From NCBI GenBank assembly GCA_000310025.1, contig FN649726.1:1968546-2032545 (forward strand): DNA of 64,000 bases, given 5' to 3'. The DNA comes from Ectocarpus siliculosus. Taxonomy: Eukaryota > Sar > Phaeophyceae > Ectocarpales > Ectocarpaceae. Position numbers and translations under genes: made by a program. Positions within the stretch are counted from its first letter, which is position 1, and the number at the start of each line of letters is the position of its first letter. The notes below the pieces were generated by a model that saw only the letters and a program-made list of their open reading frames with translations, had not been told where the DNA came from and made no database searches. Below are positions 1,509 through 63,003 of this stretch, one piece after another.

Positions 1509-4194
1509 AGTATCTGCATGTTCTTCAGCAATATGACGAGAAATCCCCGGCTGATTCCAGTGATTATTGTCAGGCTGTCTGTATTCCTATTCAGTCTAGT
1601 CATGGCATTTTTCTTCCTATAGACCAATCAACGACGAACAGCCAGCCGCATGGCAATGTTCGCTGTCACAGTTTTATCTTGAACACTGGAATGATTTTCC
1701 GACCATGTCTTGCCCGCCCCCTCCCCCCTACCCTTCCTAAACCTGCTCTGCGACCAAAACACGTTCAGTGTCACTGGCGAGCAATCAAGGCCAGGCGCTT
1801 CTACAACGCAAACTATGCCTTGTTGTATCGGGAGCGTGAGCGCAGAAAGTGCTGTACGGAGTGCCAGAGCGAGTACGCCACTCGAAAGTGCGACACGTGC
1901 ACAGACAAGTTCTGCGAGGGTTGCTGGGCGCGCATCCATAGCACGGTACGTGCGCTTCAGCTTAGGGAACACACACAACACACGCATCCATGTACTGTTG
2001 GCCGACGGATTTGAAGGCTCGCAGTCCACGCTCTTGGCTTGCGTGGGATGGCGGCAACGTCAATCCTACTCATGCTAACTACTCTTGTTCTTGTTGTCGT
2101 CATTGTTGCCAAGGTATTCCTACCTTCACATCGGGTGCAAACCTATTGTGTGCGCAGGTATTTGTCTGCTGCTTCAACAAAAGATCTCCGCGAGACTAGG
2201 CTCGACGTAGGCAATGACTTATTGTACGCGTAGTGTACACAAGGTGGTTTCGCGTTTAATTTTCAAGTCTTCAGTTTTTTATCACCGACGACGTTGCGGA
2301 GCTTGTCTTATCGTCTTCTTCACACAAGGGGGTGTAGAGCAAGACCTCGTCCTTTCGTTCATTTTCGGTTTCTGTTCTCCTCAAAAGAAATGCTGTCTCT
2401 ATACTCGCTTCCACGTGTTGTTGTATATCCATTGTACCTTGGCATGTGTATCTCGGTTCTTGCCCTGTTATAGAAACAAAAATTGTCATCCGTGGCAAAG
2501 TGGTGACTAGAATATGTCGACTGAACAACTGCTCGTGAAACGAGCACACGTTGCCACGCTTGATCGCAGGCAACTGGAGAGTATCAGATCTGCAGCGGAC
2601 CAAGTCGATACCCTCGAACTAGCCTCAGGGTCGCATAAACCCCACAAACCTATGATCAGCTCATGCGTCGATTCAACGAAAGCACAACCAAAACGTTTTT
2701 GCTCTTTCTGCGCATCCCCCCCGCACCCCTCCCCCCCCTTCTTGTCCCGCACGTCCCTCCCGTCATACAGGGTGCACGCCGTTTCCACGACTGGCTGCCC
2801 TTTGCGCCCGCCACGTACGACACAAGCAGACCACAAGACGCCACCGCAGCCCCGTCCATCACCGACAGCCAGTACTATTACGACACAAGCACGGGGCAAC
2901 AAGGAACAGGAGGAGGAGAACTGTGGGACGTCAATCAACAATCGGCAGAGCTAGACCCGTACTACCAACCTGGGTACGAGTCCTACGACTACCCCGGGAG
3001 CGAGTACTACTACGACCAGCGAGGCTGGGAACAGGAGGGCGGCAATCAGCAAGTCTCGGCGGTTTCTGTGCAGGGCTGGTCCCCGGAGACCAACAAACAG
3101 TGGTACGACCCCGACCAGCCGCCGTCCACCGGCAGCGAGTACGGCTACGACGGGGCCATGAGCTACGATGGTGCAGCGGCGATCACGCCATCGTCGTCGT
3201 CAGATTACTACCCCGCGTGGACGCCCGAGACGCCGGACACAGCCGCCGACAACAACAGCAATGCCGCCGGTACCACAGAAAAGTCCTGGGAAGGCGAGGG
3301 AGACGGCGAGTGGACTTCGGCAGCAGCGGAATATTATGGCTACGATTCCGCCGGCAACGGGGTGGATCAAGCGGCAGGCGGGGCTTGGGCGGGGGCAGGA
3401 GGAGTCGCGGGGGGCTGGGACGAAGGGTGGGCGACGCCCCAACCGGCGGACACAGCCAATGGTGACGAAGATTCCTCGGTGTTCCTTGCGTCCACCGGCG
3501 GGGAGACGAGCAAAGACAGCGGCGGTGGCAGTGGCGGCGTGGGGGGGGCACCCCCGAGCGGGAGCAGCGGCAGCCGGCCGTGGTCGGTGAACGAGTACGG
3601 GCAGAGGGTGGCCGGGGACTGGGTGGAGTACTGGGACGACGCCGCGCAGGCGGCGTACTTCTACAACACAGCCAGCGGGGAGGCAAGTGATCCTATGCGT
3701 GGGAAGATACGCGGCGCGAAGAGATTTGCGCAGCAGTAAACGGGATTCTATTGGTTCATTTGAGTCCAACGTTGCTGCCTTTTTTGGTGCGGTGAGGACA
3801 ACGAACAGCCCACGGAGGACAAGCCCCTAGTTGCGAACTGCTTACCAGTACACGCCGCCCTCCTGCTTATCTCCTTCCACCCCCCGATTTCCTGACCACC
3901 ATATATACATCCCTCTATATTTGCGGAAAAGTGTTAATCTGCCCTCTCTTCCTCCGCATGCCTCCCATCCACCGCCCAAGTCTCCATTCTTGGCCCCCTG
4001 CACCGCCGTTTGAAAGACGAGTAACCCTCCACCCAACGGCCCCAATCTGGTACTATTTTTCCACGAACCCTTCCTCTCTCATTTACTTTCCTGCCCCCCT
4101 CCCCCCCCGCCCAATCTTTGGCCTTCCTGGATTGCTGTGTGCACCCCAACCGACGACCGAGCAGGCAAGCTGGACCGAGCCCGCGACGGGATAA
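267..4194 (+). CDS. IQ-motif / B-box / WW-domain protein (5' partial)
   Basis: Exons 267-344, 856-1042, 1769-1945, 2771-3682 and 4165-4194; the 5' end lies outside the window. All junction phases agree. The first exon is a charged coiled-coil stretch. The 856-1042 exon holds one IQ motif (AIRLQCWWRGILAVK), and a second (ALALQ + CHWRAIKARR) is assembled across the 1042/1769 junction, so calmodulin binding is expected. A B-box-like zinc finger follows, with CxxC, CDTC and CEGC pairs and two histidines, the last (GARRFHDW) supplied by the next exon. The long exon is Tyr/Gly/Ser-rich low complexity ending in a WW domain (DWVEYWDD...AYFYNT). The domain's second Trp and Pro (ASWTEPATG, stop) come from the tiny last exon through a GC-AG intron. 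If 2771 is read straight on, the frame stops at 3739 and the WW domain lacks its C-terminal WxxP. Likely a calmodulin-responsive scaffold; function is inferred from domains only. Confidence 0.8.
1410..1507. repeat. (ACG/ACC)n-(AAC)n microsatellite
   Basis: Compound trinucleotide tract inside the intron between exons 856-1042 and 1769-1945. It gives spurious poly-Thr/Asn or poly-Val/Leu reading frames on the two strands. Confidence 0.9.
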
Positions 4195-7100
4195 ATTGTG
4201 AAAAACGTAGCACCGGCCGCCTAAACAGCAGGGAGGGGCCATCGTTTGGAGAACCGCCTGTTCTTGGACGTGAAGACTCTCTCAGAACGGTTTTAGTATA
4301 GGAGCAATGTGTAGCTGGTTCCCACCGCCGCAGCGAGCATGGCGTAGTGCCCCGGATCACTCTTTATCATATGCCTTGATCCGACTTGTATTGTGTGATA
4401 CTGAATCCTCTCTAAGCGTGTGTGTACGTATGTCAAATTAATGGTGCCCAATCAATCTCTTCTTGTAGACACAATGTAATGTGTTTTTGTCTAAAGAACA
4501 AAGAACTGTAGGTATGTGGAGCGAGATCTGCAATATCAACAGCAAGCAAGTAAGCATGCATGGTGTGTGGTGATGTCGTGGCCTTTTGGCGGCTATGCGC
4601 CAAGATTATCGCGATCGATCGTGCTTGCATTTCAAGATTTTTTGTGTGATGAACGCTACCGACTCGACGTTGATTGCAATTTTCTTTCGTGGTCTCCTCG
4701 TGTACGCCTTGCACATGTTTCCCACGGTTGGGCACAAGCCGTTGCGAAAGGTACCATCTGCCTGCCCCCCTTTCAACAGAAACGGCATTTGCAAACGATT
4801 GCGTTTCTGTGTGGCTGTACAACACCACAACCGCCACCAGCATCGCGATTAAGTTTCTGCGCGGCACACCCCATGCTAGAACCCACAATAAAAGCCAGAG
4901 TCTATCTATCAAGCAGGGCACAGTGACAATAAAAGCCATAGTCTATCTATCAAGCAGGGCACAGTGATCCGCATAGTCCCGCACGACACCGCAGACCTAT
5001 TCATCCCCTACTTCCTTTCACACCCGGAGGATAGTTGGCTTGCCGCCCTTCCCTTCCCATAGACCCTGAGTACTATGACGTGTTGACAGTGGACAGCCAC
5101 CGGTGCGACGCAGGTGGTTTTCGCTGAGAAGAAGTAGTCAACATCGTAATTCACACCCTACTTTCGCCACACTTCTCTCATCCCCCCTCTCCCGCCCCAT
5201 AAATTCATGTCTCGCTGCCACCGCCCCCCACGCCTGTCATTCGCGGCTCATTCCGGAAGGGTCAAGGGTAAGCAGGACGGATCCACAACAAGTCCACAGA
5301 GCAACTGGCATTTAATTGCACTCTCATCCTTCAGTCTTTCCGAGCTCTCGGCGCCGACCCTGAACCGTGCACTTGCGTATTAATCTGTAACTACCGGTTC
5401 AAATCCGAACACTCATGGACAGCATCACTACCTCACAAACAATGACAATCAGCACGTGAGACCATCATATCCCAACATGTTCTAACGTACTACGGATTAC
5501 CGTGCTCGCTCCCTCTCCGTCCCCGTCACTCAGCTCGCTTGAGCGGTTAAGGGTACTTCCGATACGAAGGCATAAGACAGCTTACGGTACGCCATACAGA
5601 CACATACCGAGGTGCCATGGGCGTTGATACACCGTAAGCCGCTCAAGCTCAAGATGTGCCAAGTGCACCGCCAACATTACAAGGCGAGACTGATCCTCGT
5701 TCTTCCGTACGACAACGAGTAAGATTGTCCTCCGTGTTACATAGCTGCGCTTCGGTCTTCAGGCAGGATCACTCACACCCCCGTCCTAACACTCCATCAC
5801 ACCAACGTGATGAACCCCAACAACCTCTGCTGGTGTCGAACTACACCTCAAAAAGTTTTCAAGCTGCAATCTTCTCTGACTCGACCATGGTGGGGTACCG
5901 GGCCCCGTTCTTGTCCGTGTCTTACCAACGCACGGTGCAATGGACAAACGTACAATTACTTTTCAAGTTTCTGCCGCTTGGCTCAAAACTACCCAGCCGA
6001 TCTCTCCCTGACAACCCATTATTTGGGTGTTTCACGTCCAGAGATGACCCAAGCAGACACACAACAGTGCAGTAAAATCTCCGGTGGGATCGCTGCCCTG
6101 CAACATCAACTTTCTGTTATTTTTTCCCCTTTTTTTTCAAGTCTGCCAAACAGTGTCTCCCACCACTGTTTCAGGGCGCGCCAAACCATGCAAGAGGGCC
6201 ACATTTCATGATGAAAGAGCACTTGATAAGAATGATAAGAACGCACGTTCTACAGTTGACCCTTGTGCCCGCTGTGTGTAGCCCGCGCAAGGCCCCTTGG
6301 CTCCCGGCAAGCACATTTCACCGCTATCGTCTCTTGTAGACCGACGGCGACAGGCGGAAGGTACGAGTAAAGCAACTCCTTGCCCACCGGCATGCTCCCT
6401 ATAGAGGAGAATCACACGTGCTTGTCACGCGCGTGCTCCTTGCCGATGCTTACCTGCGGGGAAAAAAATGTGTGCGTGTGCTTGTGAACCATCAAGGAGG
6501 ACGAAGCATGTTCGCAACATGCCAAGGGGTGGCAGGCACGTGCAAGAACTGCGTGTTGAGCAAAACAGCTAGCGATACGCAGCAGATTCTTTCGGGCACG
6601 GCGATCAACCGAACTGAGTGCAGCGACCCCATGTACTGCCGAGGTCATAACATTAGCACCTTCCTCTTAAAAACCGCCACATGTGCGACATTATTTTCCC
6701 GTGTGGCAAGTGCGCTCTACATCAACTTATGGAAGCTCCCTCAACCACAATTAGCACAGCATAGATATCTAGTTCACGGTTAAGCGTCGGACGCTGCTTG
6801 CTCGCCCTCACTGTGTTTCTTTTCTTCGTGCAAGGACGGTCACGGTGATGTGGAGGCCTCGGACGCAAAATCCTACCGGTAGCGTTCCCACGGAAGCGTG
6901 ACCTACCTTGGTGTCGAGCTGACGCGGCAGTGTCCAACGCGGTGTGCCACATAGCGTTGCCTCGGGGTTTTTGAGTCGAGGCTTGTTTCATTTCAGGGTG
7001 GCATGACCCCGTACATGTGTTTATATCTGTGCCGCCTCGGTTTCTGCTTTAGTCTGTGGGCGAGTTTCGCCATCCCCGACAAAACGCGGTCTTACCCCGC

Positions 7101-7392: not shown

Positions 7393-9544
7393 CCCGACGA
7401 CCAGATTGGTTGCCCCGGCCCTCGGTACACACGGGGCAGTGCCACGTCTCATCTGTGGTTTGGCCGGCGGCGGCTTGCTGGCTATTCAGCCTGACGCGCA
7501 GACACCCCAGGTGGAAGACACGGGGGCACTCGTCGCAGCATGTGAGTTCACCCGGATATCCGCAGACACTGGGAGAATCAAATGGGGGCAACAAAACCGG
7601 GAAAAACCGGAGGGTATGAGAGGGACGTAGAGAGAACAACGTCAACAGCTAAAACCCAGAAATAACAGCAACAGCAGTATGACTAAAAACAAATGCCGAG
7701 AGCAATCGACAAACAAACGCCTGGACGACTGACGGACGACTGACGGACGACTGCCGATGAGAGGCAACAACGTCAGCAATCCGTTGATTCACAGTAGCAT
7801 GTTCGACATGTGGTCAATGCACTCTGTACTACAAGAAACGCCATACATAGGTACGTTCGAAAGACAAGAAAAATGCACCACGTTGTCCCCTTCTCCCCCT
7901 GTCTTTCCCCGGGTATCCTCACCTGCAAAAGAAATGGCTGCCGTCAGCTCCCATCATGATTCCGCCTTGCATCCTCCACGCCTTGTCGTTCTCCTTGACG
8001 TGTTTCTGGAGCTTTTTGGATAAAGGGTGGCCTGCCCAGTCTTTCCCGCCCCAGGGGTGCCGCTTCTGCGCCGGTTTCCTCGTGCCGCTTTTCGGGGCTT
8101 GGGTCCCCGCTCTTTCCAGGTGTGCCGGCTTTCCATCCGTCCCTTCACCTGCTGCTGTACGGGGACTACCAGCGACAGGAGGAGCAGCAGCAGACTCTCC
8201 GGCGGCGTCGGTCGAGGAGGTGGGTAGAGATTGCTTGGCACTGCAACTACCACCATCGTCGTTGATGGTGCTGCTGTTTTTTTCGCCGTCACCACCACGG
8301 CCGCTGCCGGTCGCGTACATCTCGCCGCCGGTGCTGCTACCTGCCGCAGAAGAGAATCTGACCGCACCGGAGGAACCTGAACCCTTGCCAGAAAGGTGTC
8401 CACCGCCGAGGTGGTACGCGGTCACCGCGGCGCTAGCCGCCGGAGGAGCTCCGAAAGACTGGTTCGCCGCGAAAGTCACGGGAACGGCGGCCATCGAGAA
8501 TGAGGGGTAAGAGCGCCTGGCGACACTAGAGCCACCCGCGCCCTTCTCGACGAGGTGGTGCGCGGTCTCCGCGGCGCTAGCCACCGGAGGAGCTCTGAAA
8601 GGCTGGTTTGCCGCGAAAGCCATGGAAGCCGCAACGATCGAGCACGAGGGGTAAGAGCGCCTGGCGGCACTAGAGACACCCGTGCCCTTGCCGTTGGCGT
8701 CTCTGATATCCACCCAGCTAGTGTCGTCACCCTCGCCATGGTGTCCACCACCAGGGTAGTGCCCAAACACGTTCATGGTGCTTGCCGCCAGGGGGACTCG
8801 CGCTGCCTGGCGTGCGGCGTGTGCAGCCAGTTGGTCTCGGTATGCCACGGCTAGAGCCGTGGAAGCGGCGGCCGTCAGGGCAGTGGGCGGTGCAATACTA
8901 ACCAACGGTGACCGCCTGTTCTGGCGGCTCTCGTCGAGGCTGCGGAGGTACCGAGCGGCAGTAGAGACACCCATGCCCCGGCCACTGACGTCTCTGATAT
9001 TCACCCAGCCAACATGATCACCCTCGACATTGTGTCCACAACCTACCCCACAGATTTTCATGGTGCCTGCCGCCTGGGTGTCTTGCGCTTCCTGGCGTGC
9101 GGCGTGTGCGGCCAGTTCTTCTTGGTGTCGGTATGCCATGGCAATAGCCGTGGAAGCGGCGGCTGTCAGGGCGGTTGGCGGTGCAATACTAAACGACGGC
9201 GGCGGTGGGCTGTTCCGGCGGCTCTCGCCGAGCCTACGGACGTCTCGAGCGGCACTAGAGGCACCCGTGCCCTTGCCGCTGGTGTGCCTGACGTCCACCC
9301 AGCCAATGCCACCACCGTCTGCATGGTGTCCACAAGCGGGATAGTGCCCAAACACCGTACTCGTCGCCAGGGGGCCTCGCGCTGGCTGGCATGCGGCGTG
9401 TGCGGCTCGGTCTCGGTGCGCCACGGCGAGAGCCGTGGAAGCGGCGGCGGTCAGGGCGGGGGGCGGTGCAATCCCAAATGGTGGCGGCGGCGGCGGTCTG
9501 TCCCGACGGCTCTCGCCGAGGCTGCGGACGTGTTGAGGTGCCAT
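7393..9544 (-). CDS. PHD-finger protein with internal repeats (3' end not found)
   Basis: Exon 1 is 9544-7923 and exon 2 is 7568-7393. The start is the first ATG (9544-9542, context GCCATGG); the frame is open upstream to about 9610, so an upstream exon is possible. Exon 1 encodes about 540 residues of Ala/Ser/Pro-rich sequence. It has three long imperfect repeats (each beginning R-S/R-L-G/D-E-S-R and containing APPxALTAAAST) and two shorter ones (beginning RSYPS). A basic segment (HPWGGKDWAGHPLSKKLQK) follows. The C4HC3 PHD finger is split by the intron: the first zinc Cys (SHFFC) ends exon 1 and the rest (VCGYPGELTCCDEC, RVFHLGC, WHCPVC) is in exon 2, joined in phase (AG + T). PHD fingers usually read histone H3 tails, so a nuclear chromatin role is inferred. 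A donor (GGG|GTGAGC) ends exon 2; later exons were not identified. Confidence 0.75.
7723..7755. repeat. 11-bp tandem repeat x3
   Basis: Three consecutive copies of GGACGACTGAC (last ends GCC), within the intron between the two exons of the PHD gene. Confidence 0.8.
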
Positions 9545-10322
9545 GGCAGTGGCGGCCGTGCTGGAGCTGACCTTGCTCGTGATCCCGCCAGCAGTCTCCG
9601 TGGTAGACAACTCCTAGGCACACGTGGGTGGGTGAGACAATCACAGGGAAGGGGGAAAGATCAGGAGCCGGATCTACACAACGCAGTAGAGAGAAACCCA
9701 ACACATTTATACGCGTACAGTAGCGCTTTCAGCAACACAACGGGGTGATTGTTGAACAACAAATGACAGTGATCGTACAATGTTGCAATGGCTCCTGGAT
9801 CGCACACAATATACCAACAGCTAAGCGCCCGTACCATTGTTGCTCGAGTGCTAGAACTGCCACTTTCAGATAGACGACTAAAAATAGGACAAAACAAACA
9901 AACAAACTGGGTAACATTGTGCTACATATCTTCTCTCAAAGAAATTTCGGTCCATTCCTTCAACTTGCACCAGATCCTCTAAAGAGAACGAGGAAGAGTT
10001 GGAGTTCTGTAGGCTCTCGGAAGCCAAGCCTGCTCTATTTGTGCAGGTGAGTCAACCTGAAAGCGAGGTTACCGACGGTCTACCATTGGCATATTTCTGG
10101 AGGAAGCTGTCTACATTACATTGGATTCGCGTGTAAACCATTGGAAGCTCGCGCTACTTTTATCCCCTGCACACGAGAGAAATAGTGAAATATTCGTTAA
10201 CGAACATTATTAAACGAAATATTAAGATTGTATTCGGCACTCACTGCATCCTCGAGAGAAAAAATCGCTGCCTGTGGTGATTTCAAAACTTTTCCGTCAA
10301 CCAATTGGTTTCACCTATAGAC

Positions 10323-39194: not shown

Positions 39195-41312
39195 TCACTT
39201 CATGGTGATGGGGCGCGAGTCGCTCGCCCACCTCGCCTTCCAGCGGCCGTCGAACAGCACGCACTGGCCGTCATCCTGCATGGTCAGCGTGTACGGCGCC
39301 GGGCCGCAGTTGGCTGTTTCCGAGGACCAGAACACTCTCGCCGCCGAGTCGTACCCGACCAGGTCTCCGTTCTTCTGAAGCACGAGCCTGAAGGGGGCGC
39401 CGACCGGTGGCTTCCCTGCTGATCTCGAGCCGCTGCTCCAGATGATTCTCTCCGCCTGCCGGACGATGATGTTCCGGTCAGGCAGCACCTGGAAAGTGAA
39501 CTTTCCGTTGGCCGACCGGAGCACCTTCACATCCGCGTTGGCCGTCTCCACGCGCACGTAGGTGCCGGGTGCCTCTCTGGCGTGTCGGTCGGCGGGTGCC
39601 TTTCTGGGGTGTCGGCCGCTGGGAGAAACTGTGTCCACCGCGCGACGGACCATATTGTCGTCTCCGTGGTAGACCGAGCCCCGACGGAGGACGTTGCGGG
39701 CGAAGTCGCCAGCCTGGTTCCCTCTCGGTGAGAAGTAAGCGACCACCCACATGGTTGATTTTCCCTTGTACGTTGCGCGGAAGACGCCGAAGCCTACGTG
39801 GGTGGTGAGCCTCCACACGTTGGCGGTGAAGTGGGACGTGTTCGAGCTTAGGCCCGGCTTTCCGTAGTCGTACCCGGCCTCCTCTTTCTGATCATCGAGT
39901 GGGGAACGGTAGACCATGGGTATCATTCGTGTGAGAGCTGTTGAGAGATTGAGCCTCAAATTTTAAAATATAACAAAATTCCGTTACTTGTACGAAAATA
40001 AGGTTCAAATGTTCGCGAAAATAATTTGAAAATAGGGCTAAGACAAAATACGAAATGAGAGCGACCGAATACCCCATCACACAAGAACATTTCCACATCC
40101 TCCGCCCGTGCCACCCACCCCTCAGCCAAGATGCCGTTCGAGTAGTATTGCACTGAAATATCGCCGCGGCCGTTGGGTGGTGGGTGGTGCTAGAGGTGGA
40201 CCACGAGGAGGGAGTCAGGAAACTCCAGGATGGCGACATCCATCCCCCAATCAGCGTTCGCAACACCAAACTCTTGGGTCAATGATCCCCGAATCAAAGT
40301 TTCCACACCGACCGTTCTTGAGGAGGTGTGTTGTATTCAAGAAAACAAGAAAATTAGATGCGACAGCCCATAAGAAACCCAAATGAGGACTTCGGCTGGT
40401 CCTTCCACTGAGATCCTCGTTGCCCGACTTCGACGTAATACAACTGCGGGCCCGTTCTGTAATCGTTCCATACCCGGCTCTGGTTCTACAGTTTGAAAAT
40501 TGGTTGACCGAGGTGAGTGCAACACGGAGGTACGCACTTACAACGTTCAGAGATCATACTTGGCATGACGTGGTAACGCGATACTTCAGTCTTCGAGTGT
40601 CTTGACGGAAGCCACGGACAGCCCGGCAGTAAACTTCTATGCCACAACAAAGGAAACACCAGCGCCGAGCCCTTCAGCATTAGCCTCGGCCCTTGACTGG
40701 ATGTCCCGCAATTACCCTTGGAGGTTTACCGCATAACTTCAGTACTTTGTTACAGCGTCTTCCCTCGGGTCGAATCGCGGGGTATCGCCCCGGCAAAAGT
40801 CGGACCCCAAGCTCGGTGCATTCATACAATACGCGCACGTACCCACGTACCTGCATACCAGGCTCTCCAGCTCTATCTATGCTACGGCCACCACCTGAGG
40901 CTACTACATACTCGAGTATACGACACGGAAACACACCTAAGGGGACCAACCAAGACCGCGGGTTCGTTCGGTGTTTCTCGAACATGCGTGAGAGACGGGA
41001 GTGTGCGTACTCTCCCAGAATTTTCTGTCGGCGTACAGCAGTACAGCAGTACGACGTACCTGCCACTGATGGATGGAGCCGATACATGCTATCGTTGGAT
41101 CTCTCCAGCTGTGATCCGTGCTCCTGGCAAGATTCTCGCCGTACTCGGCGCTCGGCCCGGACTCGTGGCTGGCTCGCCGCTGAGCTTCGCGGGCGCACGC
41201 CGAGCTCCACCGCAGCATCGGGGCTCCGTGCTCCCTGCGGTATTCGTTGATGCAGCGAAGCACCTCGGACTCGTCTAGGATTCTCCTGGCGTTGCTGCTG
41301 GTGGTGCTGCTG
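39195..41312 (-). CDS. CAP/SCP-domain protein with bulb-type lectin domain
   Basis: Two blocks are clear. The 5' block (about 41312-41060, ending at a CAG|GTACGT donor) encodes the first half of a CAP domain: EVLRCINEYRREHGAPMLRW, then GPSAEYGENLA and GSIHQWQ. The 3' block (39937-39195, stop at 39197-39195) encodes the second half: YDYGKPGLSSNTSHFTANVW, THVGFGVF, WVVAYFSPRGNQAGDF. A linker and a bulb-type (B_lectin) domain follow, with FTFQVLPDRNIIV, RLVLQKNGDLVGYD, VFWSSETA and YTLTMQDDGQCVLFD. CAP proteins are usually secreted, and bulb lectins bind mannose-type sugars, so an extracellular or cell-wall role is inferred. The donor of block 1 is phase 0 while the likely acceptor of block 2 (before 39937) needs one extra base, so a small exon or another border is missing. 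The signal-peptide exon was not found. Confidence 0.75.
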
Positions 41313-49853: not shown

Positions 49854-52800
49854 ATGGCTTCTCTTCCAGGCAACGGAGTAGCGAGGACGTTTCTAGACAT
49901 GGGCGTCCTTGGCGTCCTGCTGGTTGGTGCGGCGCTGGTGATCTTGGTGCGAACCACGTGGAAGAAGAAGCGAGACGAGAGTGTTGCTGAGCCAGCAGTG
50001 GATACTGCAGAGCTTAGACGGAAGCGCATGGCGATGCTGGGCTCTCAGGTGTGACGGTTTTCAATACCGAGGCGGAATACATATACCATACGTGCAGGGC
50101 ACGTGGAGGGCAAACCCTTTACTTTCTGCTACTCCAGAATACTGCTGTACATGCAATTGCGACAGCTTGCTCATTCGTGTGGCGTGTTAGGGCGACACCC
50201 TTCCCTTGACACAAGCTGAGATACCCCAAACACATAACCCTTCTATCCACAGGGCTGCTTCATCAGTTTCAATGCGTTCGTTGTTGTTTTGTTTAATTAA
50301 AACACTGAAGACTACTTACTTGTAGCTGTTTTCGGAACGAGCAAGCTGGATCGAAGTCATGGTTAGTACCAGGTGGAATCACCTCAAATAGAACGCCACG
50401 CCTTTCTTATCTGCAACCAACAATGGGCTTGTCCGAACAGGCGGTATGCCGCTGTCTTGTACATGCACGAACCATTTCCGGGGTCCCGTTGTCCATGGGA
50501 GTTGCCGGGGGGCGGCAGGTAAACCTTGGGGCCAAGACTATACCTGAGGCAAATTGATAAGACAGTAAATCAAGCACCCGCTCTCTCACACACAAGGAGC
50601 CCCCCCGGTAGCTTCGAATACCGCATCTCAGTACTGCGGTCCATGTGCACAGCAGCGCTGTAGTATCAGTGCTCAAGTTCCTGTGAGGCGCCCCACTGCC
50701 CCACGGCAGAGGATTCCCAATCCTGTGCACCCCTAGGTTGTGGCACATACTAAGAAGACGAGGGGCAACTTGAGTCGCATGGAAAAACAGCAAGGATACT
50801 CAATGGGAACTGATGACGTTCAGTTATCGGTACCATAGCGCGCCCAAAACATGCCTACACCCATTCGATACCCTCCCCCCTTGCCCTTCTCTAACATCTC
50901 ATTCGTCTCTTCCTAACACAGGTCAACAGTACTCCCATTGAGCGTCGGGCCACTGCCACCACCACCAACTCCGACCCAAAGGCGAAACATACCCCCAAGA
51001 AAAGAGTTTCAAGGACCAAAAGGACGGACGCGCTCGTGCACGTCGAACCCGAGAAAAAGGTCAACACGGTGGCGAGCCGTTCGGAGCTTCGAAACAAACG
51101 CGAGGCCTTCGTCGCGGCAGCAACTCTTCCCCCCGCCGACAGCGGGAGCGCCAGCCAGCGGGATGAAGACAGCAACGCAGACCTTGCCGGTGAGAGGTCG
51201 TCGTCATCCGCAGCTACAACAAGAAGAGCTCCCAGGACCTCGTCGTCGCCCTCCTCCCCGCCGCCGCCGACCGCCTTGGCCGACGCCGCCGACGCCGCCG
51301 CCCCTGCGCCGGAAACGCCTCCTTCTGCCACAGAAACAGAGCAGCCGCCCTGCATCTCGGCCTCAGCTCCAATGACCACGTCTCTAGAGGGATCTAGGCC
51401 CGGGCAGCCATCAGATGTACCGGAGCCGCAACCGTCATCGCCAGCGGCCGCGCCAGCAGCAGTAGCCACCCCTGCGCCGGAAACGCCTCCTTCTGCCACA
51501 GAAACAGAGCAGCTGCCCTGCATCTCGGCCTCAGCTTCAATGGCCACGTCTCTAGAGGGATCTAGGCCCGGGCGGCCATCAGATGTACCGGAGCCGCAAC
51601 TGTCATCGCCAGCGGCCGCGCCAGCAGCAGTAGCCACTCCTGCGCCGGAAACGCCTCCTTCTGCCACAGAAACAGAGCAGCCGCCCTGCATCTCGGCCTC
51701 AGCTCCGATGACCACGTCTCTAGAGGGATCTAGGCCCGGGCGGCCATCAGATGTACCGGAGTCGCAACCGTCATCTCCAACGGCCGCACCAGCAGCAGTA
51801 GCCACCCCTCTGGCGACCGGCCCAGCCCCCACCCCCCCGCCGCCGCCGCCTAACCTTCCGGGATGGATGCAGCTGAGCGAGCTGCTGGAGCTGCTGGAAT
51901 CAGGGGCCCGTCCAGCATACGAGGCACTGACCGGCATCGTCTGCGTCGACGTGGTCGGCAATGATCTTACTTGGAGGAGCCGAGGCGACGGCCCCGCCGG
52001 CCCCGACACCACGGCGGGCGTTTGTCGGAGGTGGTGGGATGCCGCGTGGGGGGCCGGGGAGGTGGAGGCCGCGCGCGTGGCTGCTGATGTGCTTGGTTTG
52101 CACCTCGACGCCATGCAGGTGTGACTATGTAGCAGTGAGAGGGTGGCTCCGCTGGGGTTGGAACAAAGATTGCCGTAGTACATGTGGCGTCAAGGTTCTC
52201 ACTCTGTGCGTTCATGCTTGATATATCGAGGCCACGTGACGTGCGTGCGGTAGCTTCGGTAGTTTCTTAGGGCAGGTGGCAAGTTCTTGCTTGCTTTGGC
52301 CTACACAGCAGTCGTGCAGAAGCGCTCTTATCAACATTGTCTTCTGCTGTTGTACGATTGCCAACCCATGATGTTTCGTTCCCAGTTGGGCTGGGTCGCA
52401 CAACCTCATCAATCTTACGGGAGCATGCTGCCGTGCAACGGCAACAAACCCTATACCCCTCGCGGCGAGCCGTTTTGGTCATCTCGCCAAAACTTCTTCC
52501 CCCCTCCCTCTGCCTGCAACCTGCAGGACGATATCTTCTCGAGCGCTGATGAACAAGGCGGTGCTCTACTGCTAGCATTTCTGGGCACCTCGCCTAGCCC
52601 GTTGATGGTTCGCCACGTCTTCCTAGGGAATCCCTCAGCGGCAAGGGCGTCCCTGCGGCTCGCTGTTGCAGTTTTACGTGAGGTGCGAGGGGAAGCAGCA
52701 TCACCAGGAGCCCAGGTCCCCGCTGGGCGGCGAGGGACGAGGGCTACAGCAGCATCGGCCAACGCAACAGCTTGGGCGGACACGGCTCGACGCCTAGAGG

Positions 52801-55800
52801 CGTGGCAGCCTCTGGAGGGGCTCGAGAGCCTAGAGCGGCTGCTTCGGAGCGCCGCCGGTGCCGCTGCTTTGGCGGCCGTCCTCGGCCTTGAGGCGCGCCG
52901 GGAGTACGCGCACGGCGCCGAGCTCGAGGCCGAGTCCGTGCTCGGGCCGCTGCTTGGCGGGCTGTCTTGTGTCTTGACGCTCAACGAGCACCTCCGAGCG
53001 GCTCAGGAGAACGCTGGAGCCAATCCGTACTCGTCCGGCTCGCCGTCTCTGGGGAACCAGATGACCCAGCAGCTGGAGGAAGAGGCGTGGAAGAGAGTGC
53101 CGGCGGCGCACAAGCTCGCCAGGCGCCTCGCCGTGCTCAGGAAACCCGGGCCCCGCGCCCACAACGCCGCGGTCCATGAGTTCAACGCCTCCGTCGAGAC
53201 GGCGGCGCGGAACAGGCAGAGCTTCGTGGCGCTCGTCGAAGGAACGCTCGTGAAGGTATGGATGGTTCAAGGCCTTGGTTCTTGCTTGCTTGTCCCCGTA
53301 TTCTTGGAAGTCATGTGCCGTCCACTGCCTTGAAGGTGTACGTCTGCCGACGCTTGCCTCAAGAAAAGCTCTACGGTACCCGGAGACAAACGTATCCGCC
53401 GCTCTCGCCCTTTCTTTGAACCAATAGTGTCCCCTCCCCCCCCCCCCCCCCCCCCCCCCCCNNNNNNNNNNNNNNNNNNNNNNNNNNNNNNNNNNNNNNC
53501 TTTTCCCCTTTTTTTTGAACCGCTGGTTCCCCCCCCCCCCCCCCCCCCCCCTCCCCTCCCATACTTTTTTCCCTGCGGACCGAAGGCGATGACCACCAAG
53601 GGCGTTGCTCGCGAGTCCAAATCCGACGTTTGCGCTTGGCTCTCCAAGGCCATTTTCCTACACGAAGGCCTCCCCGAGATGTGCGACGACCACAGCGCGC
53701 CGGAGCTGTTGGGCGGGGAAGGGTCGACGTGCGCTTCCTCGGGGTTCCTGATGAGCTTCTCGGCCCTGCTGCTCCGCATGGGAGTCGGGCTGTTCTCCTC
53801 TGTTTGCCCCAAGGTGTGCCTAGGGCAGATGACGGAAGGACCGGGACGCCGCGCTTACCTTGCCCCTTTTGAACACCGCTAGAACACATTCCGAAGCAAT
53901 CCAAAACAGTGTTGGTTGATGTTTGTGTGCAGCAGTGAAAGCAGAGAAATAGAGGGAGGCCTGGTGCTGATGAGCCGATTGTCCTCAGAATCGTGCTGCT
54001 CCTGCGGAACAATCGATCTTTGAAACTCGGACCAATTGGTTCTTGTATACACCTATCCAATACTGCATTCCACGCGTACAGCAGTAGTATTGCAATTAAC
54101 GGGTTGTACGACTAGCTTACCTTCCCTTTACCCTCCTTGCTGTGTAAGTAATAGACCAACCTGACCGCGCGATAACACTTTTTATTTATTTTCGCGTCTA
54201 CCTCACCCCCAGTGCGCAACAAACGATGATCCTCTCCCCTGCGAACTCTCTCTCTCTCGCGCGCTTCTTGCCCCCCCCCCCACCCTTCGATCTTCGCGCT
54301 GTGGCACACAGAGCATGGGCTTGGTCGAGATCGACTACGTCGAAGGAGGTTCGGTGAACTGGTCGAGCGGCCTGCCGGCAGCCTCGATTGACGACGACGA
54401 CGACCCCGACGACTGCGAGGGCGATGAGGAGGTCGGCCATGGAGACGGGAACGTTGGAGGGGGCGTAGCCGTGGCAGCAGAAGCTACACCACCGCACGAA
54501 AGTGGAGGCGTCGAAGAGGAAAAAGACGGGGGGGCAGGAGAACCGCGAGAGAGCAGTGGAGAGGCTGCGGCGGCTGCCACGATTTGCGGGAGTGGTGATG
54601 ACGTCGGAAACGAAGTGGCTTCGGCGGCGGCGGCGGCGGCGGCGGATGACGAAGGAGAAGAGGAAGAGCGAGAGCAAGAAGAACCACCCCGGCGTGGCTT
54701 CAGTTTCGCGACCGAGCTCTTCTTCCTCACTCACCGCGCGCTCCAGGTGATCATCAGCCCTCTTGACCGCCGGCGAGGGGAAATGCGCAAGAGAATCAGC
54801 GACATCGCGCTCGCCAGGACAGGGCTCTCTCTTTCCGGCGACGGCGATGCCGAAGGGGAGGACGAAGCGGGCCGCGGCACGGCCGGGGTTGCACTCAAGA
54901 TCTTCAAAGAAGCGAACTCCGCCATCTCTCTCGCCTGGTCCGTGGAAGGCTTCAGCTCGGACGCGGTCACGGGCCACGCCTGCCAGCTGGCACTCTTCTC
55001 CGCGTCGTGGCTCGAGCTGTACATCGGCGAGGGCAACGCCACTAGCAGCAGCAACTGTTTGCGGTCCCCTTCCGGTGCCCCCCTCCCTGTTGCGGCCGCT
55101 GAGGGTAGCGCGAGCGCAGCAGCCGCGGCGGCGACGTCGGTGTCGAAGATAGCCCCTCCGCTGATCGAGACGATCTGCGCCTCCTGGGTGCGGGGTGCCT
55201 CGAACGGTCGGGACGAACAGTTCCTGAGTCGCCGGGCTGCGGAGGACGCGGCCACGTTCTGCGGGAAGATCATGGAGCGGGTGAGTGGTGCCATCTTCCT
55301 TGCACTATACAAACGCGACTCCCGGATCTATCGCCATGCGTTACATACAGACGATGACTATTGTGCCCTACCTGAGAGTTTGAGCAGCCCGATACGAACA
55401 GATACCATACTCGAAACAGGGAGAATTGTGAAGCCGCTGTTTGCCAGTTGCATTTCGGCGATGAAGACGAGGCGATGAATATGCTTCTTCTCTCCACTTG
55501 CACTAGTGAAACCGCTTTTTGTCAGTTGAAGATAGGTGATGAAGACGCTTTTCTGGTTGCACGTCTTCGCGTAAATGGGACAGGTGGACCTCCGCCTGTC
55601 GCCGGTAACGCAGAACAAGCTCGTGGGAGTCCTCGAGACCCTCATCCAGACAGGCACCTGGGCCCTAGAGAACGACAGGAGAGGCCGGAGAGGAAGCAGC
55701 AGAAACGGCCCCGTCGCAAGGTCTGGGGGGTTCAGCGGCTCCATGTACTGGGGGAATCGACGCGGGTATGCCGGGGCCATCTTGGACAGCGGGGAGCTGA

Positions 55801-58800
55801 GGACGTCGCTCCCGCGACAGCTCATGAGGCTGTACGCGTCGGTTCAGCAGATCGAAGGGATGGCCGCGACCGAATACATCGGGTATTTTAAGTTTAGGTG
55901 GGTGTTGTGGCTCGCCCGACGGGCCTCCTGTTTGCAACAACTGTTTGTTTTCGGCGGTATCGACCGGCGCGCGCATGCACGCACACAGAAACATGTTGAA
56001 ACAATATCGATATCGCAACGGTTTTCCGCTTGGCTGCTATGTGTCGCTGAGAGAACGTCTTTACTCATCGAGGTCTTCAGGCGTCAGCTAATGTAACAGC
56101 AGTCGCATTCATTAGGACGTTACCTTATTCATTAGGACGTTCTTCGCTCACGCTGCCGGACCGTGGTCCCCTTTTCTGAGCACGGTTTCCGGGCTTCTTT
56201 TCTGATTTTTTTCTTACGAAAACACAACAGATTTAATTAACATCTTTCACAGGCCACAGGGAGCCTTTATTTATTTTGTTTTTCGTACGTTTCGCTTACG
56301 CTTCGCCATCACGCTGAAACCGGCTTGCGTCTGCTTGCCTTAACGTACACATGACAAATTGAACTGTAAAGCGTCCGGGTGCGCGTGGGCACCATCCTCC
56401 TTCAGCTGTGGTCGCATCCTCTGGGAGAACCTCGACAGGTGATCCTCGACCTCGTTCGCGCCTCGATGGCCACATCGACAACGGCAGCGTCAACCCCGCC
56501 GTCGCCAGACGTAGCCACGGCCACCGGCGGTGTCAGCATGTCGGGCGGCGGCGGCGGCGGCGGCGGTAGAACGATGACAGCGGAGACCGCTCCGGCGGAT
56601 GCCAGGCCTCTGGCGACGGAGTTCTTCATCTCCGCCTTCGACACGATCAACTATTTCTTCAACCTGGCCTTGGACCACCTGAGGGACGGCGTGATCGAGG
56701 AGAGGGGCAACGGGGGCAGATCCCTCGACGCCGGCCATGAGCACTGGCACAAATACATGTCCGATCGAAAGCAGGTCGTCTCCGCGCTCAAGAACATGTA
56801 AGAGCAAGAGAATTGCACGATGTCAGAAACCCTCTCTTTTGTTTGTAGTCCCGAAGTTACCTCCGAATATGGTCACCACACACACAACTTATCAGTCGCC
56901 TAGTCACACGTGCACATTGTGTTCTGTCATTAGCAAATAAGGGCAGAGGTTTGTAAAGCGCTCTTTACTCTGTGTGCCTGGACCGTCCCAGGAATGTTGT
57001 CCATTCGTTGGTGTGAGGGTGTACAACAGAAGAGACGGATGTGCTGACCGATGGGTAGATATGTCTGTGGGACCTTGAGAGGGTAAGCGCTGGGTGTGCA
57101 CTATGGGAGCAGACAAGCCTTGGCGATAGAAGCCTCTTGAAGTTGTGTCCGGCTGTGGTGTCAGTTGTGACACCATCTTTTTCGAGTTGATGGCGTGAAA
57201 CAAGAGGTGTCTCCCCACGAAAACACCTGCTTGGACCCTCCTCTCCCACCCACCTATCTACAAGACAGCGGTACTCCTGCAGAAGAGGTTTTGGGGATGT
57301 TTGAGGGTTAAACGCGCTCACGCAATGCCGGATCCTCCACTGCAGACAAAGGGCCCTTCACAAGAGCGACCATACACCCTCGGCAACAACAACCGCTAAC
57401 CTAGGGTCATGGTCATGGCGTCTTTTTAACCCTGACCGCGGTAACTTGTAGGTCTTTCCGTTCAGAACGTGCGCTGCAAAAAGGTCTTGAAAGCACGCAC
57501 CCAGGCAAGAACAATCTGCGTAGTTCATACATCTCGCTCTCGTGAAGTATGTTGCACACCTCGTGGAACGGTTCGTTCTGGTTTGCCCCAAACTAGACGT
57601 CCACGCTACTCTGGCCACCTACGTTGCTGCACTATCGTGTGCCTCTGGTCTGTTCCTCGTGGCAGGACCGTCCCGGTCCTGACGCTCCTGACCACCCTCG
57701 GCGAGGAGAAAGAGGTGATGGATGCCCTCCGCATTGGAGAGTTGGGAGCGCGTTCTGCCGCCCTGCTGTCGGGCATGCTCCGCTCTCTCTACGGCGAGGA
57801 GTCGGCCGCGTTTGCGGTGGCCGATCCAAACGCGTGGGGATTCGACAAGGTTTGTGTGTGTGTGTTTCTTTTTAATTAGCATCGACGCTAACCGGCTGAC
57901 GAATGAAAATACGTCAGTCTCAGTGCGGTTGAAAATAAAAAATGCTTCTAACGGCCATGGTCAGGGACCCCGTGGGAGGGTGTCATGGGGAAGGTTATGC
58001 TTCTCTCCGAATTAAAGCCAGCTACGGTGTGTATTTGTGCGTGCGTTACGTAGGTCTCACGCGATAACTCACCCCCTTGGACCGATTCTCAAAGCTCGAT
58101 TGCTCCACGACGAAGAGGATGCCAAAATCGAACGACACGCTTTCGGAGAGCTCTCGACAGGACGGTTCCAAAGCCACGCCGCTTTCGGCATCGTCACTGT
58201 TATTGTTACGACAGTAGTGGAGCTTTGACAAAGGGTCCAGGGGGTGTGGTATCGTGCGCGACCTACAGCGTGCACGTTGGTTATATATATAATAGTCCGT
58301 CTTGTTGAAGACGGGTATCACTAGAGGTAGCAAAATAGTAGAATGGAGCGCCACCATCAACCTCAGACGGATATACTATATCCCGCACGCGGGTCTCTCG
58401 CCCGTTCTCCCCTCCAGGCTGAGCTAGGAGGAATGGCCTGTGACCTGCTGGTCGGCCTCACAGCGCACGGCGACGCCGCCCCCACCCGAGCCTTCGCTGC
58501 GGCGTTGCACCACGCCGACTCGGAATTCGACGGCCGGCTGCTGGAGGCCGTGGCGGCGGGGGAGGGCGGCGCGGGCCTTGGCGGGACGCCGGCGTTGGCG
58601 CGCTTGACGCGGGCCCTGGAAGCGGCCGACGAGGACCGCCGTAAAATGGAGGAGGAGCAGGCAGCAGCGGCCGCGGTGGCAGGCGAAGGAGGACAGGGTA
58701 GCGGCGGCAGCGGAGATCCGTTTGAAGGGGTTCCGGAAGTGGCGGCGGATGATGAGGAGTTGGTCCGGGAGTACGGCGACGCCATCGCAGACCTAGTGCA

Positions 58801-61393
58801 CACCCAGGTAAGGTGTGGGCTGCCGGTCCGATGCCTCTATGTAGCGTGCTTTGCGTTCTCACCCGGTTCCGTCGTGTTGCGCGCCGTGGGCCCCGTTGAT
58901 ACAAGGTGATCTAAGCGCCAGGAATTTGGCTGAAAGTGTTGCAGACTGCCGTACCTCCGTAGGCGTCGGCCAACTGGTTGATGCCGCACTCGTGGCTGCA
59001 AACCTGTCGCTCGGCTCATTAGCCCGGGTGACTGCAGATAGAAGGGAGTTGACCATGTCATTATATACGGCGAAACATGCCGATGCTCTATAATATGAGA
59101 CAGGCGACATTGTTGACCGTTTGTTCTTTCACCACCATTTGAGACAATTTGCCTACACGCAGGTTATTTTGTTGCCCCTCATCACGCACCGCTTTGACCA
59201 CGTCTACCCGTCGCATGGGGGCATACGAGTACATAGCAAGCGTTGCGCTTTCCCCCCTTTTCGTGCCCAATCGGGCGTTGTACTTTTACTCTCCCTGAAA
59301 GAACAAAACGCCAAGATTGATCGACCCTCTGTCCTCGCGCACGGTACTTGCGTACACGCATGTGTCGCAGGTGGAGTCGCTGTCTCCCGGGCACTACTTC
59401 GACAGCCGAAGGGAGGGTTCCACCCTGACTCACCCCCGCAAGGTGGCCACCGAGACCATGCGCAAGCTCCCCCGGATGCTCCCGAACCCGCCGCACCCTA
59501 ACTCCGCGGTGTTCGCGGTGCTCGGGGAGGACGCACTCAACTTTTCCCGATTCGTGATCTCGGGGCCCGTGGACACCCCGTACGAGGGCGGGCTGTTCGT
59601 GTTCGACGTGTTCTTGCCGTCTAACTACCCGGCCGACCCGCCCCTGGTGCAGATGATTACGACCGGCCAGGGCACGGTCAAGTGGGTTGTTGTTGTTGTT
59701 GTTGTTGTCGTTGTCGTTGTCGTCGTTATTGCTGCTCTGCTGTGGCGTTGCCTGGTGTTTCAGATTGTTGGCATTTCGGCAGTACACCGTAGACTCACAT
59801 ATAGTTGCTGTCACGACGTTACAGCAAGACGGGGCATGGACCGTTGTTGTTGCGCTGCTGTATTGTTGCGCGGCTCCATCGCTCCAAACTCTTGCTGAAT
59901 GAGCGATGCGCAGAAACACGTTTTGCGTCCGTTTGAGGATCTCCATGTTGACGACGCTCAAACTGCTTCCGCCATAAGTCATTTATTTTGGAGGTGCGAG
60001 TGCTCGAAACCTGGTTGCCGATCTACCACCCCGGGGGTCCCGAAGTGCCTCCTGCATGCCCAAATATCTCCCTCTTGCGTCTGGATAGGTTCAACGTCAA
60101 CCTTTACTCCGACGGCAAGGTGTGCCTCAGCCTCCTCGGGAGTGCTACCGGGGCCAGCGCCAGCGGTGGAGACAAGTGGAACCCCGAGACAAGCTCGCTG
60201 TGGCAGGTGATCGTTCTCATCTAAGTAGCATCCCGCGACCCATACTTCGGCAGCAAGCAACTCTTAGAACACGACTATTTATCACAGACAGCAGTTCTTC
60301 TTCGCTCTGTTCGACCAGAGAGAAACCATGAAGATGCCGACGCGCTCCTCGAAGGAGAACCCCTCGGTGTTAGCCATTGCTGCTAGTGTTTGTATGCCCT
60401 ACCTACCTGTGTGCGTCTACATGTTAACGTGTGATCTCTCTCGCAACTTGTGGTGTATCGCTCGCGTGTTGTTTTCATTCTTGTTCACGTCCCGATCGTT
60501 TTTTGCGTTGTCTTTTTTATTTTTCCTTCAGGTGTTCGCATCCATCCAGACCCAGGTGCTCGTGAAGGACCCGTACTACAACGAAGGTGACTCTTTCGCG
60601 TTATTAGTTCCTGTACATCCGTGAGGAATCAATCATCTGTATTTACAGGGTCGTTCGAAAAAAGCCGTGTTGTGTATCATGTACGCATAGATAGACGTTT
60701 GCCAGTTGAACAACATCAGTCCTGAAAAGCAAACTACGGTTAGCTTACTGAACGGATAGAACCATTGCCAGGAAGAACGCAACACAACTTTCGCACAACA
60801 TGAAAAAAATGATCGATCGACGCCCCCTCTCTCAAGATCAAATGACGGTCGTTTACAAGAGCGATCGTGACGAATACGTCTTATGCATACAACAATTCAA
60901 ATTTGGTTGATCCGAGTTGTTGGCGCTAGTATTGGAACAAAAATGTGTTGACCAGGACGACACCCCACGCTAAATGTCTTGACAATATAACCATATCGCT
61001 TCCATCCACGGTAAATTAATGTTTGTCGGTACGTACGTATTTCAATTTGCTCAACTCCCTCCCTTTTCCATCCCAGGTGGAGGGCGTAGCAACATGCGGG
61101 GCCGAGGGACCGCGGAGACGGAAGAGGCCTCCGCCCACGAGAACGCCCGCGTGATCCTCGAGACCATCCGGCACGCGGCCGTCGCCAACCTCCGCCACCC
61201 GCCCAAAGGTTGCGAGAAGCTCATCAGGCAACATTTCCACAGCCTCCGCAAGCGGGTGCTGGCGAGGTGCCGGAGGGCCGTCGAGGAGGCCCCCAACGAG
61301 CGCCTCAAGAGGGCCACGCTGCGAGCGTCGGCGGAGTTGAGGGCCGAGATGGACAAGCTCCCTCAGCAGCTTGCCGGCGAAGTTGAGAGCTGA
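49854..61393 (+). CDS. Membrane-anchored UFD2/UBE4 (E4) core fused to a BIRC6-type UBC (E2) domain
   Basis: Thirteen exons: 49854-50048, 50922-52118, 52527-53255, 53586-53813, 54312-55280, 55584-55897, 56372-56797, 57666-57849, 58418-58807, 59371-59681, 60089-60206, 60532-60586, 61077-61393. All junctions are GT-AG and in phase; 1810 residues. Start: first in-frame ATG (ACGATGG). Residues about 13-32 form a transmembrane anchor (LLVGAALVILV) followed by KKKR. ELRRKRMAML (53-62) matches the UFD2/UBE4 N-terminal motif. Residues 193-360 are three 56-residue repeats. The UFD2 core spans roughly 465-1540 (ESVLGPLLGGLS, SSGFLMSFSALLL, FSFATELFFLTHRAL, FFISAFDTINYFFNLALD), with acidic insertions. 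No U-box follows. Instead residues about 1555-1705 are a UBC domain (ISGPVDTPYEGGLFVFDVF, FNVNLYSDGKVCLSLLG, catalytic Cys1660, KWNPETSSLWQ, VLVKDPYYNE) of BIRC6 type, then a helical tail. Predicted to extend ubiquitin chains at a membrane; activity is inferred. Confidence 0.85.
51303..51806 (+). repeat. 168-bp coding tandem repeat x3
   Basis: Units start at 51303, 51471 and 51639 and each encodes 56 residues (PAPETPPSATETEQ...). The three copies are nearly identical at DNA level, implying recent expansion or homogenisation. They lie in exon 50922-52118 of the E4-E2 gene, in a Pro/Ala/Ser-rich presumably disordered region. Confidence 0.95.
53462..53499. other. Assembly gap (38 N) flanked by poly-C
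   Basis: Thirty-eight N between long C runs, in the intron between exons 52527-53255 and 53586-53813 of the E4-E2 gene. The UFD2 core reads continuously across, so no exon appears lost. Confidence 0.95.
57873..58015 (+). repeat. Dispersed repeat family, copy 3
   Basis: Lies in the intron between exons 57666-57849 and 58418-58807 of the E4-E2 gene. ACCGGCTGACGAATGAAAAT, GTTGAAAATAAAAAATGCTT and CAGGGACCCCGTGGGAGG align with the reverse complement of 20937-21120 over about 140 bp. Confidence 0.75.
59690..59735. repeat. (GTT/GTC)n microsatellite
   Basis: GTTGTTGTTGTTGTTGTCGT and onward, just downstream of the donor of exon 59371-59681. Confidence 0.9.
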
Positions 61394-63003
61394 GGTAGTC
61401 GGACAAGCTGCTGTTTCTAGTTGATATCGATTTACGATTCTGTTTGTCGTTGAGAGGTGACGTTGTTTCCTAAATAGGGAAGTACTCGGAACAAGCAAGG
61501 TGGTGACGCCATTTGGTTACGCACCACGTTGGGACAACTTTTCGAGGAAGAGCAGAACGCGAGTAGTATAGAGGGACGTGACTCGGCCCGGCCTCCATCA
61601 CGACCTTGAGCGAAACGAATCGGAAAGAAATTGGGGAAGGACACTGAAGAGGAATCGCACACATTGGTTGAGCCCACCAATGGAGTTCCTCGGTCAGCGA
61701 ACAGATGTGGTCGACATCATTGTGAAATGTTGCTTGGTCCCGGGAAGGTAGTGTTACCAGCCCTAAAACCCTAAGTTGATGAATATGTGGGAAAACCGTG
61801 ATGGGTGATCATTAGGGGGGTGGTTGATTGGGCAAGGAGGCCAGACCCTTGGTTTGCGTCCGTCGGTGCGATTTTTCGCCTTGCACTTTTACCCTAAAAT
61901 TATTGTTTTTGTTCTTCGTGTGACTTACGCGTTAATCAGCGTCAATGTCCCGGTTATCATTCAAGTCTCGCCGTTCCATGGTTTGCACGAGGGGCGGCGT
62001 GCCAAGAGAAAAATTGTAGGTTGCGTTGCATGTAGCCGTTTTATCCTTCAAAACACAACTATATCCTCTGCTGACGTAGCTCTTGGTTGGGAGGGTGTCA
62101 CCAAAACTTTTCGACACTCAATCTGCCAACATGTAGGCACAGGCGAGCGGTGTACCAGAAGCTAAAAGTGATGATGAAGGGTAAACCTAAGAAAAACATT
62201 TGTGGCTCGCAGTTCGCTGATTGGTCAACGCACCTGCGGCGGAATTTCGAAAATTCCAAAAAAGACAGGGACGACCCAAGATACTTGTTTGGCGGGTGGC
62301 GTCATCCACGGTGAAATCGAGGATGGCACCTCAGGAGATCTTGGGAAAGTCGTGTCTTCTGATGATGATCTTTCTGCAAAGTCATCATCATCTCGGATGA
62401 CTACGAACGGGGATGGATGGAGATGGATCTGCCGGCCGACCGATATCCACGTGTAGTTTTGTGTGTGGGGATCGATCGAAGGAATGTTCCGCTGCTGGTC
62501 TTCTAGTCTTCTACGTAGACTATAATACAATACACAGGCCGGGCGGAGAATGGTGTTGTTCCGTGCTGCCTGTAGACTACATTGTTGTCGGAATGTAGTA
62601 AAGCCTCCGTCCAAGATGCTGTACGCATTTTGATATTGCACGGGCATCACTCGTTTTGAGTTGATTTGGCGAATGCTGAGGATGTTCTTGAAGACCTACA
62701 GAAAGAATTCCGGTAGCGAAAATGGGTTGTAATAGATTTTGACACCTCTTTTCCATTTTAGAAAAATTATGTAGACATGCCGATGCCGACACGAAAACCG
62801 GCATCAACGCATGCAAGGGAGGCCGCCACCGGGTAGTTCACTGCCCCCGCCCGGTGTAAACCGCACCCCAAACGGATTCCGCAAAGGACCATCAAGCAAC
62901 ACCCGTTGCGTCATCTTCCTAGCCCTCTAGCCTACCGATGTTGTTGCCAACCGACCAACTGCTGCCCTCAAGAACGAAAAAAACTGCCCCAGAGCCCCTC
63001 TCT
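61394..63003. other. Intergenic region between convergent genes
   Basis: Separates the stop codons of the plus-strand E4-E2 gene and the minus-strand SNF2 gene. No exon, RNA gene or mobile element could be supported. Confidence 0.5.

Follow-up and report, generated by a model that had tools for sequence, protein, structure and literature searches.

A diverged UFD2-type core and a BIRC6-type ubiquitin-conjugating domain in one predicted protein of Ectocarpus siliculosus

RING and U-box ligases work with a charged E2 that they recruit as a separate protein. In the window analysed here, a stretch of 64,000 nucleotides of Ectocarpus siliculosus DNA, a first-pass annotation had noticed what appeared to be a different arrangement, in which a UFD2/UBE4 core is followed in the same frame by an E2 (UBC) domain, and had proposed an enzyme that elongates ubiquitin chains in cis. 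The questions raised by the locus are whether a single gene is present, which kinds of scaffold and E2 it joins, and how such a protein could work.

On the + strand of the window, 13 predicted exons between 49854 and 61393 join stop-free into a protein of 1,810 residues (5,433 bases, equal to 1,810 codons plus the stop; ATG at 49854, stop ending at 61393), in line with the single frame originally described. The 12 introns, 303–873 bp in length, without exception start with GT and end with AG. Third-position GC is 0.63–0.90 in the exons vs an overall GC of 0.43–0.60 in the 12 introns, which is the pattern expected for coding exons. From these features of the sequence we infer that the mRNA is spliced according to the following model.

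49854–50048, + strand: exon 1, aa 1–65; hydrophobic helix, then a basic stretch; open frame and GT donor, no homology found
50922–52118, + strand: exon 2, aa 66–464; low-complexity with a tandem repeat; no Pfam family
52527–53255, + strand: exon 3, aa 465–707; the UFD2-type core begins here, as judged by eye (ESVLGPLLGGLS)
53586–53813, + strand: exon 4, aa 708–783; Ufd2P_core profile positions 63–109; alternative start 53616
54312–55280, + strand: exon 5, aa 784–1106; Ufd2P_core positions 153–270, preceded by an acidic insert
55584–55897, + strand: exon 6, core; with exon 7, Ufd2P_core positions 355–421
56372–56797, + strand: exon 7, core; with exon 6, Ufd2P_core positions 355–421
57666–57849, + strand: exon 8, core; with exon 9, Ufd2P_core positions 512–602
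58418–58807, + strand: exon 9, last part of the core (to ~58552) followed by an Ala/Glu/Gly-rich linker; donor CAG/GTAAGG
58808–59370, + strand: junction intron, 563 bp, phase 0
59371–59681, + strand: exon 10, a BIRC6-type approach segment (HYFDSRRE...HPRKV) leading into the UBC domain, which begins in this exon
60089–60206, + strand: exon 11, UBC active site; Asn1652 and predicted catalytic Cys1660 (60123–60125)
60532–60586, + strand: exon 12, UBC; VLVKDPYYNE
61077–61393, + strand: exon 13, C-terminal part of the BIRC6-type E2; stop

Exons 1 and 2 rest on open frame and splice sites, the Pfam scan finding nothing in either, and exons 1–3 could be placed differently. The start of exon 4 is uncertain between 53586 and 53616, of which the latter by eye better fits an intron position of the genome's UBE4 gene (see below). 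Exon 2 carries, at 51297–51809 of the window, an in-frame 168-bp tandem repeat (3.1 copies, 95% matches) whose unit corresponds to 56 Pro/Ser/Thr-rich residues. Intron 3 contains an assembly gap of N flanked by two poly-C runs (window 53462–53499).

The link between the two halves of the protein has the coordinates and phase ascribed to it at the outset: exon 9 ends at 58807, exon 10 starts at 59371, and the frame is in phase 0 and open on both sides. The donor after exon 9 (CAG/GTAAGG) agrees with the consensus at eight of nine bases and is the best of the 12 in the gene, the others reaching 5–7, and exon 9 is thus unlike a last exon, even though it would run on, if left unspliced, for 33 more codons to a stop at 58907–58909. 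On the other side of the intron, the match of exon 10 to the solved BIRC6 homologue 9qgg, a BIR-repeat E2 from fly, starts at residue 8 (HYF), and the match to the human BIRC6 of 3ceg at residue 17. Exon 10 has its first in-frame Met at residue 30 (aa 1574), and no Met occurs where the frame stays open upstream of the acceptor. An E2 starting within exon 10 would consequently lose conserved sequence, and the first exon of a separate E2 gene would have to lie elsewhere. A short one inside 58808–59370 would be compatible with the sequence, but the 3′ end of one gene and the promoter and first exon of the next would then all have to fit in 563 bp, a length inside the range of the gene's introns. 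The motifs AATAAA, ATTAAA and TATAAA are missing from 58808–59370; since AATAAA and ATTAAA are also missing from 61394–61900, beyond the stop, this says little. We consider it unlikely that the fusion, predicted here from DNA sequence, is an artefact of the gene model and that the locus instead holds a degenerate UFD2-like gene that lacks a U-box and stops after 58807, next to a gene for a BIRC6-type E2 that starts upstream of 59371.

When the joined protein was compared with Pfam, UQ_con was matched with an E-value of 6.5e-17 (aa 1599–1703) and Ufd2P_core with 5e-16, the latter in three stretches scoring 58.7 bits against a cut-off of 20.4. A UFD2-type core and an E2 are thus indeed found in one predicted protein, and the E2 stands where a U-box would be expected. 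Beyond these two families, the scan at E up to 1 returned one weak UEV match (0.012), and the BIR family was not found. Likewise, the U-box was not found, so that of Ufd2P_core, U-box and UQ_con the joined model contains the first and the last, as the earlier description implied. Of the 11 open reading frames listed for the junction intron, four on the plus strand and seven on the minus strand, three plus-strand frames in or overlapping it were scanned and gave neither a U-box nor any other Pfam family. The six exon-level U-box matches obtained genome-wide (best candidates only) all lie on contigs other than that of the window.

The 266 residues following the junction match 242 distinct PDB sequences at E-values up to 0.001. 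Among the best 60 of these 242, the top nine are BIRC6 or BIR-repeat E2 enzymes (1e-44 to 1.4e-40), followed in the same 60 by UBE2O from 1.5e-29 and then UBE2Z from 1.4e-25. The BIRC6 match covers query residues 17–247 of 266 and extends through PYYNE. The active site reads NVNLYSDGKVCLSLL in the window E2 and NPNLYNDGKVCLSIL in BIRC6. Asn and Cys are kept in it, and the triad NPN of BIRC6 is replaced by NVN (Pro to Val). The predicted catalytic Cys, aa 1660, is encoded in exon 11 (60123–60125) and aligns with the BIRC6 Cys. The UBC domain opening at 59371 was therefore correctly credited with an intact Cys, with the correction that it is spread over exons 10–13. Judged by these matches, the window E2 is not a generic E2; it is of the BIRC6 class, as found in single-polypeptide E2/E3 hybrids.

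The diverged core extends across seven exons, and four pieces of it were scanned apart against Pfam. Ufd2P_core gave the lowest E-value for each: 0.17 for exons 3–4, 4.8e-4 for exon 5, 0.034 for exons 6–7 and 0.0017 for exons 8–9, all of them below the curated cut-off when taken singly. For the first piece, RtcB follows very closely (0.2). The pieces follow the order of the profile, at positions 63–109, 153–270, 355–421 and 512–602 of 628, and it is in this order and in the sum of the pieces that the strength of the profile evidence lies. Of two control sequences, a reversed core matched only SelK_SelG (0.15) and a locally shuffled core matched no family. The recognisable core ends at aa 1459 (~58552), 26 profile positions before the profile end, and the rest of exon 9 is linker; hence 58807, first taken as the end of the core, holds as the end of the exon only. 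In addition, exon 3 resembles by eye the segment KTILGPILSLS of a solved UFD2 chain, a likeness that lies outside the Pfam stretches. In a phmmer search of the PDB with the N-terminal part of the protein (exon 1 and the exon 2 repeat region omitted), UFD2 was not found and two chance matches were obtained.

The profile and sequence searches of the genome covered 189 Mb in 492 contigs, here numbered C1, C2 and so on, with the window on C1. An ordinary UBE4 is encoded on C19:70279-83835 (partial model, N terminus not traced), with a core matching profile positions 1–627 at 1.9e-137 and a U-box at 7.8e-25 that starts 17 residues past the end of the core match. The window gene is consequently an extra gene, not a replaced E4. 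Compared directly with this UBE4, the window protein reaches a local score of 68, which is not above shuffles (mean 48, SD 5.6, maximum 74 of 300), and a best BLASTP E-value of only 0.27. Similarly, when phmmer was run against UBE4, the full protein ranked behind four of 300 shuffles, with Ala/Gly-rich linker as its best stretch; used by itself, the core did not appear among the 12 matches listed. By profile, the predicted protein is nevertheless of UFD2 type, as a distant member.

The intron after window exon 4 (CPK/SMG) falls at the site of a UBE4 intron (FKK/IDA), both in phase 0, and the preceding intron also agrees with UBE4 if exon 4 starts at 53616. Both comparisons were made by eye, and among the remaining core introns compared in this way none coincides with a UBE4 intron. 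The window core may derive from an old duplication. A simple exchange of last exons at a shared intron was not seen: the junction intron is in phase 0, and the intron that precedes the U-box exon of UBE4 is a different one, in phase 2. The latter (C19:82825-83080) appears to be of the GC-AG type.

The weak likeness to UBE4 in single-sequence comparison leaves room for the scaffold to be some other helical repeat, e.g. armadillo, making the protein a short BIRC6/UBE2O-type enzyme without E4 ancestry. BIRC6 itself is described as carrying armadillo repeats before its UBC domain (PMC10827748), and to this may be added the sub-threshold scores of the single core pieces and the near tie of the first with RtcB. 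Conversely, the joined protein clears the Pfam cut-off by 58.7 to 20.4 bits, its four pieces come in order, the reversed and the shuffled control were negative, and one or two intron positions are apparently common with the genome's UBE4. No armadillo family was listed at E up to 10, a setting at which the filters drop most weak matches. We therefore regard a scaffold of another repeat type as improbable, and continue with a core of UFD2 type.

A second copy of the fusion was not seen with any of three queries. Of eight matches to the E2 query, four are the window gene and the remaining four lie on C17, C14, C29 and C476. The junction query gave one further match (C26, E 0.0365), and an 822-aa core query, lacking exon 9 and the acidic first part of exon 5, two further ones (E 0.23 and 0.51). 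An exon-by-exon search of the genome with Ufd2P_core missed the window gene itself, and an equally diverged copy could thus escape detection. Searches of viral, bacterial and archaeal contigs with the E2 part produced 1 and 35 pattern matches and no relatives by tblastn; a single-protein query of this kind finds close relatives only, and prokaryote and virus contigs are uninformative on distribution in eukaryotes. The C17 match (C17:1351211-1351522) is another BIRC6-type E2, with 52% identity over query residues 39–148, which by eye shares a Q/V intron with the window gene.

What the analysis shows directly is an open exon structure, two domains recognised by profile with no U-box, an E2 of the BIRC6 class and a separate UBE4 that has its U-box; binding, catalysis and location of the protein are what we infer for it in the following. 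In the reading that we consider probable, one gene encodes a UFD2-type helical scaffold that ends in a BIRC6-type E2 instead of a U-box, the tethered E2 serving a client bound to the scaffold. As in UFD2 proteins, from which the function is carried over by family, the diverged core would bind either the client itself or proteins that partner or carry it. An E1 would charge Cys1660, a site assigned by alignment, with ubiquitin. The linker would then let the E2 hand the ubiquitin directly to the bound client, with no separate E2 and no RING or U-box ligase, by analogy with BIRC6 and UBE2O. The architecture is compatible with client binding and transfer by one polypeptide. That the protein is made with a relic core and an ordinary or even inactive E2, and hence has no special mechanism, seems very unlikely to us: the core is strongly diverged and the triad is NVN where BIRC6 reads NPN, but the frame is intact across 12 introns, third-position GC is at least 0.63 in exons and at most 0.60 in introns, and the active-site Asn and Cys are retained together with PYYNE.

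The enzyme first envisaged, one that elongates chains in cis, stands in part, in that core and E2 do occur in one predicted protein. Since the E2 is of the BIRC6 class, an E3-independent hybrid of the BIRC6 and UBE2O kind, built on a UFD2-type scaffold, would be a better model. E4 activity and chain elongation in cis are putative for the window protein, UFD2 activity being ascribed to the U-box that is missing here, and the core can for this reason only be presumed to bind. The putative enzyme may either start chains or lengthen them. In work on yeast Ufd2, the U-box is reported to be essential for ubiquitination activity, and a function is shown that persists without it (PMC4582114). For worm UFD-2, the corresponding account describes a preference for unfolded segments, with luciferase left unmodified whether folded or unfolded (PMC5797217); binding of any unfolded client is thus not assured.

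The highest 19-residue hydropathy of the protein, 2.58, starts at aa 14 and marks a helix at approximately aa 14–32 (49893–49949), followed by RTTWKKKR. On the evidence of hydropathy, the helix perhaps anchors the protein in a membrane, in which case the basic residues would, by the positive-inside rule, place the remainder in the cytosol. ER quality control is a natural guess for location and role; if the alga has a complex plastid, a guess at an alternative role would be the plastid's ER-like import machinery, and a table of components of that machinery in a Nannochloropsis paper includes Ufd2 (PMC6610115). Taken together, a membrane-anchored, self-contained E2/E4 in which a diverged UFD2-type scaffold has had its U-box exchanged for a BIRC6-type E2, and which works alongside the normal UBE4 in quality control, either at the ER or at a plastid membrane of ER origin, is a tentative picture that we put forward as possible and somewhat doubtful.

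Among known systems, the UFD2/UBE4 proteins are alike in that Ufd2P_core profile positions 63–602 follow in order and the catalytic module is C-terminal; the window protein differs from them in that no U-box was found and a UBC domain is present instead, in its very diverged core and in the extra N-terminal hydrophobic helix. BIRC6 (BRUCE, Apollon), an E2/E3 hybrid, provides the best E2 match, one that takes in the approach segment and most of the C-terminal region. It also resembles the window protein in having a C-terminal UBC domain on a helical scaffold (layout from PMC10827748). The same source describes the UBC domain at the end of the armadillo scaffold as too mobile to be visible and the E1 UBA6 as enriched with the protein (PMC10827748). 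The window protein is, however, much shorter, with 1,810 residues as compared to ~4,860–4,900 in the long solved BIRC6 chains, gives no BIR match in the Pfam scan, and has a scaffold that matches Ufd2P_core. UBE2O, an E3-independent E2, represents the second closest E2 group (1.5e-29) and likewise holds its E2 inside a large single polypeptide, but the window E2 is nearer to BIRC6, and the N-terminal part of UBE2O is to our knowledge unrelated to UFD2. The third group, UBE2Z (1.4e-25), has solved chains of 262–354 residues and no comparable scaffold.

In layout, BIRC6 and UBE2O are thus of the same kind and already known, and the pairing of a Ufd2 core with a UBC domain is what sets the window protein apart from them. 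We know of no described protein with this pair; in the literature searched (titles and abstract openings) none is described, and automatic database annotations may exist. If the protein is made as predicted, the attachment of an E2 to an E4-type scaffold would be another evolutionary solution to E2 recruitment, and one more way, next to those of BIRC6 and UBE2O, of arriving at an E3-independent E2. It would also be a natural experiment on the contribution of a UFD2 core that lacks its U-box, and the N-terminal helix would add a membrane-bound version of an E3-independent E2.

Elsewhere in the window, a 564-residue open frame on the - strand (7919–9613) carries two tandem arrays, one of 144 bp x 2.0 and the other of 291 bp x 3.0, and has no match in Pfam at E up to 0.01. 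Two further open frames give weak Pfam matches below the curated cut-offs, one on the - strand at 39198–39962 to the D-mannose-binding family (B_lectin, E 4e-4), and one on the + strand at 2639–3736 to a WW domain near its end (E 8e-4).
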